Below, piece by piece: positions 4,869 through 40,982 of a stretch of 44,291 nt of DNA. The stretch's first letter is position 1, and every line of letters starts with the position of its first letter. The notes under the pieces were generated by a model. It was not told where the DNA came from, made no database searches, and saw only the letters and a program-made list of their open reading frames with translations. The position numbers and the translations under genes are program-made. This DNA comes from Sphingomonadaceae bacterium (GTDB taxonomy: Bacteria; Pseudomonadota; Alphaproteobacteria; Sphingomonadales; Sphingomonadaceae), in NCBI GenBank assembly GCA_021741065.1, contig JAIOYN010000005.1:1-44291 (forward strand), written 5' to 3'.

Positions 4869-4954
4869 GGACAGGTGGCCGAGTGGTTAAAGGCAGCAGA
4901 CTGTAAATCTGCCCGGTTTTCCGTACGCTGGTTCGAATCCAGCCCTGTCCACCA
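4869..4954 (+). tRNA. tRNA-Tyr (anticodon GUA)
   Basis: An 86-base tRNA with a long variable arm (class II). The acceptor arm GGACAGG pairs with CCTGTCC, the discriminator is A, and the CCA end is encoded (4952-4954). The anticodon stem GCAGA/TCTGC flanks the loop CTGTAAA, giving anticodon GTA at 4903-4905. The T arm contains GGTTCGAATCC. A possible -35 element TTGACA lies at 4781-4786, about 85 bases upstream, but I see no good -10. Confidence 0.96.
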
Positions 4955-17522: not shown

Positions 17523-17528
17523 CGGCGT

Positions 17529-17620
17529 GGGAGTCGGATGGACGTGGCACTCGCCAACCTGGTCAGGTCCTGACGGAAGCAGCCACAACGAATTCGCTGC
17601 GGGTCATTCGGCTCCTACTT
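17529..17620 (+). ncRNA. ffs: Signal recognition particle RNA (4.5S, small bacterial type)
   Basis: About 90 bases. The conserved core GGTCAGGTCC (17561-17570) and GGAAGCAGCC (17575-17584) forms helix 8, the Ffh M-domain site. The terminal helix is GGAGTCGGATGG (17530-17541) paired with TCATTCGGCTCC (17604-17615), 12 pairs with some G-T wobbles. The apical tetraloop is TGAC (17571-17574) rather than the GGAA of E. coli. The RNA binds Ffh to make the particle that brings nascent membrane proteins to FtsY. The position directly before dnaX is usual in alphaproteobacteria. Ends are approximate. Confidence 0.9.
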
Positions 17621-17673
17621 TTCCCCGTGTTTTGGTGGAGAAGACTTCGACAAAGGTCGGTGATGCTTCTAAT

Positions 17674-35638: not shown

Positions 35639-35715
35639 GCGACCGTAGCTCAGTTGGTTAGAGCGCTGGTTTGTGGTACCAGAGGTCGGGGGTTCAAGAC
35701 CCCTCGGTCGCCCCA
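35639..35715 (+). tRNA. tRNA-His (anticodon GUG)
   Basis: The acceptor GCGACCG (35639-35645) pairs with CGGTCGC (35705-35711). The discriminator is C (35712) and CCA is encoded (35713-35715). A G at 35638 provides the G-1 that is specific for histidine tRNA and pairs with C73. The anticodon stem CTGGT/ACCAG flanks TTGTGGT, anticodon GTG. Confidence 0.97.
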
Positions 35716-35823: not shown

Positions 35824-36858
35824 ATGATGCCCGCCATTTGGGACTTGCCTGATTTTGACTCGCATGAGGCGGTGCATGTCTTTGACGACCGCGCGACCGG
35901 GCTAAGGGCCGTTATCGCGGTGCATTCTACCCATTTGGGGCCAGCAGCCGGCGGAACACGGTTTTGGCATTATGGCGATTCCCAAGCGGCAATTACGGAC
36001 GCGCTGCGCCTATCGCGCGGTATGAGCTACAAAAACGCGATGGCGGGACTTTCTGCCGGCGGGGGCAAAGCGGTAATTCTTGCCAATCCTGCTCGTACCA
36101 AGAAGCAGGATATGCTCGACGCCTTTGCGCGGGCTGTGGATTCGCTCGGCGGACAATATATCACGGCGCAAGATGTCGGCATGTCTGAAGCTGACATGGT
36201 TTCCTTGTCGAAGGTGACGCAGCATGTGGCTGGCCTGCCCGGACAGGGCGGCGATCCGAGCCCTTACACAGCGCGGGGGGTATTCCTAGGCGTTCAGGCG
36301 GCTGCAAAGCATGTGCTTGGGACAGATAGCATGTCGGGCGTACACGTCGCTATTCAGGGCGTGGGCAGTGTTGGTGGCGGTTTGGCGCGTTATCTTGCGG
36401 AACAAGGGGCAAAGCTGACATTGGCCGATGTTGATGCGCAACGTGCCGCAGACCTAGCTGCGGAGCTGGGCGGCACCAGCGTCCCTGCCGACGCGATCAT
36501 GACCGCCGATGCAGATATTTTCAGCCCCTGTGCTTTGGGAGCCATACTTACGCAAGCCAGTGTGAACGCCTTAAACGTTCGCGCCATTGCTGGCGGGGCG
36601 AACAACCAATTGGCCACAGGGCCAGAGGGCCGGATGTTGGCGGATAGGGGTATCCTCTACGCGCCAGATTATGTCATTAACGCGGGCGGCATTATCAACG
36701 TTTTGCGCCACATCGAAAATGCCGATGATGCGGAAATCAACCGCCGCATTGACGCCATTCCGGCTCGTCTTTCTGCGATCTGGTCGGAAAGTGATTTGAC
36801 CGGCCACACGCCAGCCGAAGTTGCCGACAATATGGCACAAAAGCTTATTGGCAGATGA
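35824..36858 (+). CDS. Leu/Phe/Val dehydrogenase-type amino acid dehydrogenase
   Basis: A 344-residue NAD-dependent amino acid dehydrogenase of the Glu/Leu/Phe/Val family. The substrate-binding PAAGGTRFW is near residues 40-48, the catalytic lysine in SYKNAMAGLSAGGGKAVI near 66-82, and the Rossmann GVGSVGGGLARYL near 180. The size (about 345) fits leucine, phenylalanine or valine dehydrogenases and not glutamate dehydrogenase (about 420 or more). It would interconvert a branched-chain or aromatic amino acid and its keto acid. ATGATG gives two possible starts. It stands alone between tRNA-His and kup. Confidence 0.88.
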   Translation: MMPAIWDLPDFDSHEAVHVFDDRATGLRAVIAVHSTHLGPAAGGTRFWHYGDSQAAITDALRLSRGMSYKNAMAGLSAGGGKAVILANPARTKKQDMLDAFARAVDSLGGQYITAQDVGMSEADMVSLSKVTQHVAGLPGQGGDPSPYTARGVFLGVQAAAKHVLGTDSMSGVHVAIQGVGSVGGGLARYLAEQGAKLTLADVDAQRAADLAAELGGTSVPADAIMTADADIFSPCALGAILTQASVNALNVRAIAGGANNQLATGPEGRMLADRGILYAPDYVINAGGIINVLRHIENADDAEINRRIDAIPARLSAIWSESDLTGHTPAEVADNMAQKLIGR

Positions 36859-37135: not shown

Positions 37136-39073
37136 ATGGTTGGACCGCAAGCAGACGATTTCGGTCATAGCGACCAGGATCACCATCACAGCCATGCCCC
37201 AAAAGGGTCGCTGCTGGCATTATGCGTGGGCACGATAGGCGTTGTCTTTGGCGACATCGGCACCAGTCCGATTTACGCGTTCCGTGAAACCTTTGCCGGC
37301 CACCACCCGATAACCCCTGATCCGATGCACATCAAAGGTGTGTTGAGCCTTGTGTTCTGGTCAATGATGATCGTGGTGACGTTCAAATATGTCTTCACCA
37401 TCATGAAAGCCGACAATAAGGGTGAGGGCGGAAGCCTTGCCCTTTTGGCGCTCATTAACCGGCAGACAGCTGGCGCGAAATGGACCGCGCCTTTTGTCAT
37501 GCTCGGGGTGTTTGCAACCGCGCTATTCTATGGCGATTCCATGATTACACCTGCCATGTCGATCTTGTCGGCAGCCGAAGGTCTAAAATATGTGAACGAA
37601 GGCTTCAGCGCATGGATATTGCCGATATCGGTTGTGATTATCGGCGCGCTATTTGCATTTCAGTCACGCGGGACTGCGAAAGTAGGGGCTTGGTTTGGGC
37701 CGATCATGCTGCTCTATTTTACAACATTGGCGGGCTTGGGGCTGATGCATCTGACTAAGATGCCGATGATCATCTTCGACGTATTGAACCCCATGAATGC
37801 GTTCTATTTTTTCTATATTGATGGGTTTCGGGCCTTTGTAGCGATGGGGACGGTTGTTCTTGCTGTGACGGGTGCGGAGGCGCTTTACGCCGATATGGGC
37901 CATTTCGGGCGACGGCCCATTAAGTTTAGCTGGCTGTTCTTCGTACTGCCTGCGCTGATGCTCAATTATATGGGGCAGGGGGCAATGATATTGTCCATGA
38001 CACCCGAAGAGGCACAGGTTGCCATTCGCGACCCGTTCTTCCTTATGGTGCCAGAATTGATCAGCACGCCCGTCATTTTCCTTACGATTATGGCGGCTAT
38101 CATTGCAAGCCAGGCCGTCATTTCCGGCGCGTTTTCGTTGACGCAGCAGGCAATTCAGTTGGGCTTTATGCCACGCCTCAGCATATTACACACCAGCGAG
38201 AAAGCGGCTGGGCAGATTTATATTCCGGCGATTAACTGGGGCCTCGCGGTGATGGTTTTGCTGCTGGTTTTGTTCTTCCAGTCATCGTCCAACCTTGCTG
38301 CTGCTTATGGTATCGCGGTGACGGGCGCGATGTTCATCGACACCTGCCTGATTGCGGTCGTCTTGCTGTCGCTGTGGAAATGGCCAAAGTGGAAAGCGCT
38401 GCCCATCCTCGCTTTATTCTTCATCGTCGACTTTGCCTATTTGGGCGCCAATTTGTTGAAGGTGCCATCGGGAGGATGGGTGCCTTTGGTCATTGGCTTA
38501 GTTATCTTCACCTTATTGACGACGTGGTCTCGTGGCCGCGCTTTGATGCGCGAGCGCATGGCAGAAAGCACGATGCCCATGGAGATTTTCATAAAGTCTG
38601 CCGCCAATAGCGCGACACGTGTTCAAGGCACGGCGATATTTATGGCATCGGCAGCCAGTGGCGTGCCCTCGGCTTTGCTGCATAACATCAAGCACAACCG
38701 TATTTTGCATGAACGCGTCATCATCCTGACCGTGCAGATCGAGGATATGCCTTATGTCGTTAGCTCTGACCGTATAATCTGTAAGGATTTGGGTGAAGGT
38801 TTTTACCGCGTAAAAATGCGCTTTGGCTTTTTGGAAGAAACCAATGTGCCTGCGACCCTCGATTTGGTTGATTTGTGCGGTCCCAAATTTGACATGATGC
38901 ACACCAGCTTTTTCCTATCGCGTCAGACATTGATCGCATCCAAAATGCCCGGCATGGCGATATGGCGGGAAAAGATATTTGCGTGGATGTTGCGCAATGC
39001 CGCCAATGCTATGGAATTTTTCAAATTGCCAAGCAATCGCGTAGTCGAATTGGGTAGCCAAGTTGAAATCTGA
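37136..39073 (+). CDS. kup: Potassium transporter Kup (KUP/HAK/KT family)
   Basis: A 645-residue transporter with about twelve membrane segments (residues about 25-450) and a cytoplasmic C-terminal domain. The family motif [17 protein letters not shown] stands near residue 34-50. It takes up potassium by proton symport. I use the ATG at 37136, preceded by CGGGGAAA; a TTG at 37112 is in frame. The N-terminus is His/Asp-rich (DQDHHHSH). The preceding 277 bases hold no gene but include an AT-rich stretch. Confidence 0.94.
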
Positions 39074-39158
39074 TCTGCCTTAGTTTTCGTAACTAAATAA
39101 CCGCAACGTGATTTAAGACTGGACGAATGTTGCTCGATATGGCTATCGCCATCATGTT

Positions 39159-39212
39159 ATGAAATCGCGCAACGCCCTTTCGCTTCTCCTACTACGACTT
39201 ACACGCCCTTAG
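39159..39212 (+). CDS. leuA leader peptide (17 residues, leucine-rich)
   Basis: A short frame reading MKSRNALSLLLLRLTRP and then TAG. Six of 17 residues are leucine, four of them in a row (codons CTT, CTC, CTA, CTA), and two are the CTA codon. It lies 100-153 bases before leuA, and its stop codon is inside the 5' arm of a strong hairpin ended by TTTT. This is the classic layout of an attenuation leader: leucyl-tRNA shortage stalls the ribosome on the Leu codons and prevents termination. No strong ribosome site is seen before the ATG. The peptide itself probably has no other role. Confidence 0.85.
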   Translation: MKSRNALSLLLLRLTRP

Positions 39213-39259
39213 GCGTGCCTGTTTTGCCGACCATGTTCGGCACCCGCCTAAGGGCTTTT
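39205..39259 (+). terminator. Attenuator hairpin of leuA
   Basis: GCCCTTAGGCG (39205-39215) pairs perfectly with CGCCTAAGGGC (39245-39255), followed by TTTT. Inside, TGCCGA (39225-39230) pairs with TCGGCA (39237-39242). The 5' arm also forms a competing hairpin CACGCC-CTTA-GGCGTG (39202-39217), so alternative folds are possible. The leader peptide stop codon lies within the 5' arm. Confidence 0.75.
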
Positions 39260-39311
39260 CCACCGCCAATTTTAGCCCCCAAGCCGGGCGTCTCAGCGAA
39301 GTTGCCATATC

Positions 39312-40982
39312 ATGATGCTTTCCGACCCATCGCGTAAATATCGACCTTTCCCCCAAGTAGATCTGCCCGACCGCATTTGGCCGACGCGGACCATAGAAAG
39401 AGCGCCGCGCTGGCTTTCGACTGACCTACGCGATGGTAACCAAGCGCTCATCGACCCCATGGGAACGGAAAAAAAGAAGCGCTTTTTTGACCTGCTGCTG
39501 AAGGTTGGCGTAAAAGAAATTGAGGTTGGCTTCCCAAGCTCCGGCGCTACCGATTTCGATTTCATTCGCGGGCTCGTCGACAGCGGGAGTATTCCGGATG
39601 ATGTTACAATCCAAAGCTTGACGCAGTCGCGGCGTGACCTGATTGAAAAAACGTTCGAGAGCATGGCGGGCGCGCCGCGGGCAATCGTTCATCTCTACAA
39701 TGCGGTCAGCCCTGCGTGGCGCGATATCGTCTTCAACCTCGACAAAGCCGGCGTAAAGGCGATAGCTATCGAAGGCGCGCATATCCTGAAAGAGCAAGCG
39801 GCGAAATATCCGCAAACCGATTGGCATTTTGAATATAGCCCCGAAACATTCTCGACGGCGGAGCTCGAATTTAGCCTTGAGGTGTGCGAGGCTGTTATGG
39901 ATGTGTTGCAGCCCACCGCGGCAAAACCGCTGATCCTCAATTTGCCAGCGACGATTGAGGCCGCCATGCCCAATGTCTATGCTGATCAAATCGAATGGAT
40001 GTGCCGCAATGTTAGCGCGCGGGATCATGTCGTCATCAGCCTGCATCCCCACAACGACCGGGGTAGTGGCATCGCCGCTGCCGAATTGGGCTTGCTGGCA
40101 GGCGGAGACCGCATTGAAGGTTGCTTGTTCGGCAATGGTGAGCGCACCGGCAATGTCGATTTGGTGACGCTGGCGCTGAACATGTATACGCAAGGGCTGC
40201 ACCCTGGCCTCGATTTCAGTGACATTGACGAGGTCATTCAGACCGTTGAATATTGCAACCAGTTGCCCGTGCACCCGCGCCATCCCTATGCCGGCGAATT
40301 GGTATTCACCGCCTTTTCAGGATCGCATCAGGACGCGATTAAAAAAGGGTTTGCGGCGCATGAACGGCAAAATGACGAGATTTGGCGGGTGCCCTATTTG
40401 CCAATCGATCCCGCCGATTTGGGTCGCAGTTACGAAGCCGTCATCCGCGTGAATTCGCAAAGCGGCAAGGGCGGTGTCGCTTGGGTAATCGAGCAGGACC
40501 AGGGTTTGAAGTTGCCGAAACGGATGCAGGCGAATTTTTCAATCACCGTGCAGCTATTGTCGGACACAACGGGGCGGGAGCTGACAAGTGCTGACATTTG
40601 GGAGGCGTTTGAAAAGCGCTATCATCTAAAGGGTGATGGCCGGTTCCGGTTAATTGATTTCCACGAAACCCAAAGCCAGCGGCAAAAGGACGAGCGCATC
40701 TTTGCGGGCAATATCCGCATCGATGGTGTCGAACAAAGCGTCAGCGGACGGGGTAACGGCCTGATTTCTAGCCTTGCCAACGCATTGCAAGACGCGCTGG
40801 GCGGTTCGCTGGATATCATCGACTATAGCGAGCACGCTATTGGCCATGGCACTGATGCCCGCGCCGCTGCCTATGTCGAATGCCGCGTTGGCGACGGACC
40901 TATATTATTTGGCGTCGGCATCAGTCGGGATGTGGCTACAGCGTCCGTTAGAGCAATCCTGAGCGCTGCTAACGGGGCTTAA
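39312..40982 (+). CDS. leuA: 2-isopropylmalate synthase
   Basis: A 556-residue enzyme. It condenses acetyl-CoA and 2-ketoisovalerate, the first committed step to leucine. The N-terminal TIM barrel has [15 protein letters not shown] (residues 36-50, metal-binding Asp) and HPHNDRGSG near 240; the C-terminal third (about residue 420 on) is the LeuA dimer/regulatory domain with leucine feedback site. The length (about 560) fits the long LeuA class found in alphaproteobacteria and actinobacteria rather than the 520-residue E. coli type. Two adjacent ATGs (39312, 39315) are possible. It is expressed behind an attenuator. Confidence 0.95.

Follow-up and report, generated by a model that had tools for sequence, protein, structure and literature searches.

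A leucine-codon leader upstream of leuA in Sphingomonadaceae and other Alphaproteobacteria, with complementarity to the leuA start

In enterobacteria leuA is preceded by leuL, which encodes a leader peptide with consecutive Leu codons, the rare CTA among them. The alphaproteobacterial leader analysed here likewise places a peptide with consecutive Leu codons before leuA, but differs from leuL in a stop codon located inside the stem, in the small number of U-runs and in a predicted pairing with the leuA start. Two alphaproteobacterial leaders invite comparison. The leader of Caulobacter ilvBN/ilvIH, in which ribosome pausing blocks the terminator hairpin itself according to the accessible part of its description (PMC4117421), also belongs to branched-chain amino acid genes, but it has Ile/Val codons and precedes another gene, and the likeness is one of description. 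trpL of Sinorhizobium meliloti is a leaderless short leader ORF; it differs in its Trp codons and in acting by transcription termination, with a peptide and RNA that also work in trans, as far as the available portions of the two accounts extend (PMC7298713, which also names the leu operon of Salmonella, and PMC10117765).

Among described systems, the LEU element of Actinobacteria comes nearest; the accessible part of its original account describes a stem between the Leu codons and the Shine-Dalgarno box of leuA (Seliverstov et al. 2005, PMC1262725). As in the LEU element, the present leader lies upstream of leuA, and its short ORF contains consecutive Leu codons. A stem between the Leu codons and the Shine-Dalgarno region of leuA was predicted in relatives and is weak in the window itself, the window being the whole stretch of 44,291 nucleotides that was analysed. 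The lack of a clear intrinsic terminator is shared with the LEU element and also with the Streptomyces leuA leader, the latter within the limits of the text available for that study (PMC8079986). The LEU element is described, in the portion of the account at hand, with a pseudoknot, whereas no pairing between the leader and the loop of the conserved stem (stem T) was seen here in the one pseudoknot form tested; a stop codon inside the conserved hairpin is a feature of the alphaproteobacterial leader and not of the LEU element. The leader peptides also differ (MRFGLLLLSCRGEGL versus ...LLLLRLTRP), and the covariance model R2, rebuilt with class sequences, gave no match at the leader of four leuA loci from Actinobacteria (L386-L389). 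Because the tested pseudoknot form was absent and R2 was blind to these four loci, the leader was not filed as a member of the LEU element. No alphaproteobacterial leuA leader was recognised in the open-licence literature searched, although an earlier description is possible, most likely in Vitreschak et al. 2004.

In the actinobacterial leuA upstream regions L387 and L388 the Leu codons run into CTTCTTAGCTGCC, a 13-mer common to the alphaproteobacterial locus L181 and Microbacterium L388. This shared 13-mer is a lead towards a possible common origin of the alphaproteobacterial leader and the LEU element. A Leu-rich frame with CTACTGCTAAGC was noticed before leuA in the betaproteobacterium Cupriavidus metallidurans (L393, around 460-500), and a related leader may thus occur in Betaproteobacteria. 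It is conceivable, though on balance doubtful, that Alphaproteobacteria and Actinobacteria share one ancient family of leuA leaders, in which the Leu codons would serve both as sensor and as cover of the leuA ribosome-binding site, the stop would lie in the hairpin and the leader would have been kept through exchange of the leuA type. A second lineage is now available in which the long-standing question of how the LEU element of Actinobacteria works can be tested.

The leader locus in the window

All features of the locus are on the forward strand. The leader ORF, read directly from the sequence, encodes MKSRNALSLLLLRLTRP* at 39159-39212 (ATG 39159-39161, stop TAG 39210-39212, 17 codons), and the C-terminal core of the peptide is repeated in relatives. 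Six codons specify Leu (codons 7, 9-12 and 14), the four consecutive ones being CTT CTC CTA CTA; a short in-frame ORF with Leu codons upstream of leuA is what an attenuator calls for. The codons CGA CTT (39195-39200) contain the invariant Leu codon nearest the stem, CTT, and are also the best-supported leader strand of a long-range helix discussed below. The downstream gene (39312-40982) was identified by profile match as leuA; its product, a 2-isopropylmalate synthase, belongs to the leuA_yeast type (TIGR00970), which it matched with 812.8 bits where 697.4 is the cut-off. The original prediction placed the Leu-rich 17-codon frame correctly in the gap before leuA, which it took to be 240 bases long; the gap, counted from the end of the preceding gene at 39073 to the leuA start at 39312, is 238 bases.

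Stem T has 11 bp, with the 5' arm GCCCTTAGGCG at 39205-39215 and the 3' arm CGCCTAAGGGC at 39245-39255, both indicated by folding and covariation, and is followed by TTTT (39256-39259), a run that is rare among relatives. Stem, T run and the position of the stop TAG inside the 5' arm (39210-39212) all agreed with the first reading of the locus. In relatives TAG, TGA or TAA stands at the same offset, or the stop comes two codons later. Within the T loop, an apical hairpin (39225-39230/39237-39242, spanning 39225-39242) was predicted by folding only. A competing hairpin, A (CACGCC-CTTA-GGCGTG, 39202-39217), with a folding energy of -8.8 kcal/mol, lies over the 5' arm of T. The region 39140-39270 folds at -38.4 kcal/mol (z -2.89), and none of 200 shuffled sequences folded as well. 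No Rfam family overlapped the leader region at gathering score, and at E ≤10 the single match in 39050-39330 was to a fungal snoRNA family on the opposite strand (E 5.4). As the frame, the Leu codons, both stem arms and the in-stem stop recur in relatives, the leader element is not a product of chance.

A candidate promoter was located at 39119-39147 (CTGGAC at 39119-39124, a 17-nt spacer and GCTATC at 39142-39147). In 32 of the 37 same-genus loci CTGGAC stood within the 60 nt that precede the leader ATG, and in 29 of these 32 its distance from the ATG was 39-40 nt. Only six of 143 family leaders had an SD-like tetramer before the ATG (137 without). The position of CTGGAC and the scarcity of SD-like tetramers suggest a near-leaderless transcript with a putative start about 5 nt before the leader ATG.

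Distribution and conservation of the leader

The leader RNA was found across the Alphaproteobacteria. All 37 same-genus loci, which were fetched through the LeuA protein, carried it. A DNA pattern for the leader core gave matches in 233 of 298 family genomes, and in 109 of the 110 pattern-found family loci examined leuA was the next gene (92 identified by tblastn against the window LeuA and 17 by examining the ORF that follows; the 37 loci fetched via leuA itself are excluded from this count). A second pattern match in one genome (G179, locus L142), with neither a leader ATG nor leuA, was discarded as a chance match. From the 65 pattern-negative family genomes 24 were picked by hand, including three already known to match the covariance model R1 (G108, G150 and G302). 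Eleven of the 24 had a leuA of the window's type, preceded in ten by a diverged leader that R2 recognised, and six gave no LeuA match. These six (G079, G104, G113, G119, G123 and G136) are nearly complete Sphingomonadaceae genomes without a match to the window LeuA, and the bacteria may use external leucine or a very different enzyme.

An exact pattern scan of 84,980 named species returned at least 119 stretches. Of 80 loci among the matches listed, 78 had leuA behind the leader, and the other two ended after 183 and 111 bases. The taxa among the matches listed were Sphingomonadaceae, Acetobacteraceae, other Rhodospirillales, Caulobacter, Thalassospira and other Alphaproteobacteria, with a few records labelled Proteobacteria only and one bin labelled Actinobacteria. 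The contig from this bin (L212, CAJCHR010000176.1) carries the leader and a leuA 74% like that of the window and is probably a misbinned sphingomonad contig.

R1 matched 57 genomes among 147 from the order, 55 of them in the family, and 25 of 289 class genomes; R2 matched 104 of 387 class genomes. In a phylum sample, 85 of 397 genomes had model matches, 84 of the 85 within Alphaproteobacteria. leuA lay downstream in 68 of the 69 model-found loci examined, a set that keeps L326, L343, L348 and L373, which are among the loci misplaced or left unframed by the motif finder. The exception was the sole match outside the class (G906, L384), taken as chance for want of leuA. The loci examined include two batches (80 and 40) picked by hand from longer lists. 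In a large bacterial class, the enzyme at the entry to leucine synthesis can be assigned a specific, probably leucine-sensing RNA; short leaders escape gene calling, and no covariance-model match to an Rfam leader family was obtained at the loci tested.

The same leader precedes two distant kinds of leuA enzyme. A type other than the window's, for which LeuA1 from L051 was the query, was present at 17 examined family loci and at 66 of 69 class loci; on TIGR00973 (leuA_bact), with a cut-off of 598.7, the representatives L051 and L171 reached 632.5 bits and 729.6 bits, respectively. This suggests that the regulatory site outlived replacement of the gene it precedes.

The C-terminus of the leader peptide is nearly fixed as (L)nRL[T/I/M]RP*, and family leaders contain 2-6 Leu codons (mean 4.5). 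In the 141 family leaders compared, the Leu codon nearest the stem was CTT in 132 and CTA in nine, and 135 had a Leu codon immediately before CGA. CTT and CTA together accounted for 418 of 634 Leu codons in the leaders, versus 512 of 3684 in the leuA starts. Of 128 distinct family sequences 127 had this CGA, a codon that made up only 128 of 3169 Arg codons in leuA starts; among model-found loci it was kept in 47 of 69 and mostly replaced by a Leu codon in the remainder.

The stop in the stem is no peculiarity of the window. At offset +15, inside the stem, TAG was found in 96 of 143 family leaders, and 59 of the 69 model-found loci had an in-stem stop (55 TGA, three TAG and one TAA). Within the family TAA is represented too, by L394 and L395, and 47 family loci have the stop two codons further downstream. 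Shifted stops, with RPWA* and similar ends, were noted in L189, L197, L216, L220, L264 and 43 TGA-stop family loci. This shift was seen both in the family and in Rhodospirillales/Acetobacteraceae, and probably arose more than once.

Covariation of stem T was assessed in two alignments. The family alignment, A1, held 140 of 147 loci, three identical loci being omitted together with L101, L108, L139 and L142 (poor or missing 3' arm, contig end or chance match); 95.6% of its cells pair, and double-sided changes affect five pairs and 54 cells, where shuffles give 15.0 cells. The class alignment, A2, had 30 non-family and five family rows; 98.2% of its cells pair, and such changes affect five pairs and 19 cells, where shuffles give 5.7. 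Where TAG and TGA exchange, stem pairs switch from A-U to G-C and from G-C to A-U; TAG, TGA and TAA interchange within the stem and the opposite arm compensates, which makes this one clean system of stop codon exchange under a base-pairing constraint. The check that accompanied the original prediction, an alignment of the upstream regions of relatives, thus returned both conserved Leu codons and compensating stem changes, and its reading of the locus as a leucine leader-peptide attenuator is supported.

Complementarity between the leader and the leuA start

On sequence comparison, the Leu-codon region of the leader shows species-specific complementarity to the leuA start, a property newly described here. 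In the whole-leader fold predicted for the window, 39156-39184 is set against the leuA start region 39295-39316, the leuA ATG included, with AGCGAA/GUUGC/UCAUGAU opposite leader positions 39179-39184/39169-39173/39156-39162. The register seen in relatives would pair CGACUU (39195-39200) with AAGUUG (39299-39304), 6 bp including one G-U.

As a test of the complementarity, the leader of each species was paired with its own leuA start and with the starts of other species, and the duplex energies were compared; leuA starts were estimated from protein alignments. L326, L343, L348, L373, L384 and L385 were omitted (motif or leuA start unplaced), and L317, L319 and L321 were left out at the first step. 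Over all sequences (n=176) own pairs were better by about 7 standard deviations, a value reached in 0 of 5000 permutations. After removal of targets at least 60% alike (n=139; 84 family, 55 class), the signal lay on the antiparallel diagonal: in the family at leader -21..-6 x start -18..0 (z -7.8) and leader -15..0 x start -30..-12 (z -5.6), and in the class at leader -6..+9 x start -30..-12 (z -6.5). Nine of 20 test segments fell below z -3 in the class and 10 of 20 in the family, versus 0 of 72 control segments from leuA coding or upstream DNA, of which the lowest was -2.6 and the means lay slightly under zero (-0.29 and -0.66). The arms of T, used as positive control, gave z -6.1 and -10.9. 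One off-diagonal family segment (leader +3..+18 x start -60..-42, z -4.1) we take to be the T arms, and leader against T loop gave no signal (z -1.6 to +0.2). Within the genus (18 sequences), leader -6..+9 scored -3.8 with start -24..-6 and -3.2 with start -18..0 (1 of 2000 permutations each; two of 54 segments below -3).

Perfect or near-perfect helices were found in L328 (UGGUCCUUCG/CGAAGGACCA), L378 (GCUCCUUAU/AUAAGGAGC), L056 (CUUCGACUU/AAGUCGAAG), L020 (UGCUCUC/GAGAGCA) and L027 (AUGCCUG/UAGGCAU). The position of the helix in the leader differs between clades, CGACUUAYN alone giving z -0.35 in the family and -7.4 in the class. Among sequences with an SD-like tetramer, its pairing with the leader was predicted for 34 of 45 in the class and 13 of 20 in the family; only 20 of the 84 family leuA starts had one.

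To model the effect of a stalled ribosome on the leuA start, the energy cost to open leuA -20..+3 was calculated. With a ribosome stalled on the last Leu codons, the mean cost fell from 9.7 to 7.9 or 7.1 kcal/mol in the family and from 10.8 to 7.3 or 7.1 kcal/mol in the class. Masking the T 5' arm alone left it at 9.5 and 10.4 (a change of 0.2-0.4), a comparison that is not matched in length, the stall masks being 30 nt and the arm mask 12 nt; a length-matched 30-nt mask at the stop codon gave 9.0 in the family and 8.6 in the class (lower by 0.7 and 2.2). In the window a stall at the CTT codon reduced the cost from 7.4 to 5.4, and a stall at the codon before it did not help (8.0). The Leu codons of the leader appear to cover the leuA start signal. 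Such a pairing, which the original prediction overlooked in a mechanism otherwise partly right, points to translational control, as well as or instead of termination.

Proposed mechanism and alternative explanations

The best explanation, which we hold to be probable, is a leucine-sensing leader-peptide attenuator of leuA with a covered leuA start. It is grounded in the conservation of the leader, its linkage to leuA, the rare Leu codons, the covariation of T and the species-specific leader/start complementarity; from these we infer a leucine response and its direction, the transcript start site and the share of translational and transcriptional control. The near-leaderless short ORF would be translated while the RNA is being made. 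With ample leucyl-tRNA, the ribosome would pass the rare Leu codons and leave at the in-stem stop, and two nested helices would then form, stem T and a long-range helix between the leader around the last Leu codons and the leuA start, which would block leuA translation. In species with a U-rich tail, the window included, some transcription may also end at T. Under leucine shortage the ribosome would halt on the Leu codons, above all on the invariant CTT before the stem, and its footprint would cover half of the 5' arm of T together with the strand that the leader contributes to the long-range helix; with these strands covered, both helices would open and leuA would be expressed. Synthesis of the leuA enzyme would then very probably be confined to leucine shortage. 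In such an arrangement the run of sense codons would also be the repressing RNA strand, so that sensing and repression would use the same bases. Stall modelling, together with the coincidence of the leader strand with the site of the starved ribosome, favours leucine-controlled covering of the leuA start, and T is best regarded as a second, ribosome-sensitive element (a pause, a weak terminator or a spacer). Against this explanation stands the window itself, where the relatives' register amounts to only 6 bp and the predicted fold uses another, and so does the behaviour of coelicolor leuA, which the accessible part of the literature describes as unlike classical attenuation.

Classical transcription attenuation only, with T as the terminator and a ribosome on the last Leu codon masking its 5' arm, is rather unlikely, although several results fit it. 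The direct masking of the stem contained in the original prediction agrees with the nearest Leu codon being CTT or CTA in all 141 family leaders and, in the footprint model, with a ribosome that has CTT in its A site covering about half of the 5' arm of T; the remaining fold is then weakened from -29.6 to -16.4 or -14.5 kcal/mol. By covariation and footprint model, T is indeed a conserved stem that a translating ribosome could melt, as in an attenuator, and in the Caulobacter ilvBN leader ribosome pausing blocks the terminator hairpin, according to the available description (PMC4117421). The window has both T and TTTT, and in 82 LeuA2-type loci with the stop at +15, T makes up 49% of post-stem positions 2-6. 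The U-run of an intrinsic terminator was, however, mostly missing from relatives: a run of at least four T within 12 nt after the stem was found in only 17 of 143 family loci, and such a run after the stem in four of 69 model-found loci, and T made up 20% of positions 2-6 in the 46 later-stop loci. With T runs so scarce after the stem, it is generally doubtful that T acts as an intrinsic terminator; the group of the window may possess a weak one, but this is not the general device. Classical attenuation also leaves the leader/leuA-start complementarity unexplained.

In a variant of it, hairpin A would be the antiterminator when the ribosome stalls further upstream. In the footprint model, stalls on early Leu codons leave T free and hairpin A forms first. 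The competing hairpin of the original prediction covaries in the family alignment (96.5% of cells pair, 47 cells changed on both sides against 5.4 in shuffles), where only two pairs carry changes on both sides, a number reached by 177 of 500 shuffles, but in the class alignment 67.2% of cells pair, the same as in shuffles. As a general antiterminator it is doubtful, and it was kept for the family set only.

Rho-dependent termination through the leader peptide, in which the ribosome-free, C-rich stretch between the stem and leuA would load Rho when leucine is plentiful, is improbable. C is more frequent than G in 122 out of 128 stretches after the stem, these fold no better than shuffled sequences (mean z +0.32, n=128), and Rho was proposed for actinobacterial cys leaders in the available part of PMC1262725. 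The first 150 bases of leuA also show C above G (0.365 versus 0.25), so the post-stem excess is weak evidence for Rho, and the complementarity of leader and leuA start is not accounted for. The same stretch looks hairpin-rich by eye in some clades, and a second conserved hairpin between T and leuA was considered and rejected on the comparison of the 128 sequences with shuffles. That a regulatory protein binds the conserved RNA and that the peptide is incidental, as proposed for the LEU element in the accessible text of PMC1262725, is highly improbable in spite of the strong nucleotide conservation of CGACTTA outside stem T, because the open frame and the rare Leu codons are kept while the stops interchange under compensation, and CGA itself is replaced by a Leu codon in 21 of 69 model-found loci.

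Other features were noted elsewhere in the window. An ORF resembling an amino-acid dehydrogenase (35824-36858) lies 2.5 kb before leuA; its best NCBIfam match was the tryptophan dehydrogenase ScyB, at 331.7 bits under a cut-off of 600. A small SRP RNA gene and two tRNA genes are located at 17527-17621, 35639-35712 and 4869-4951, respectively.
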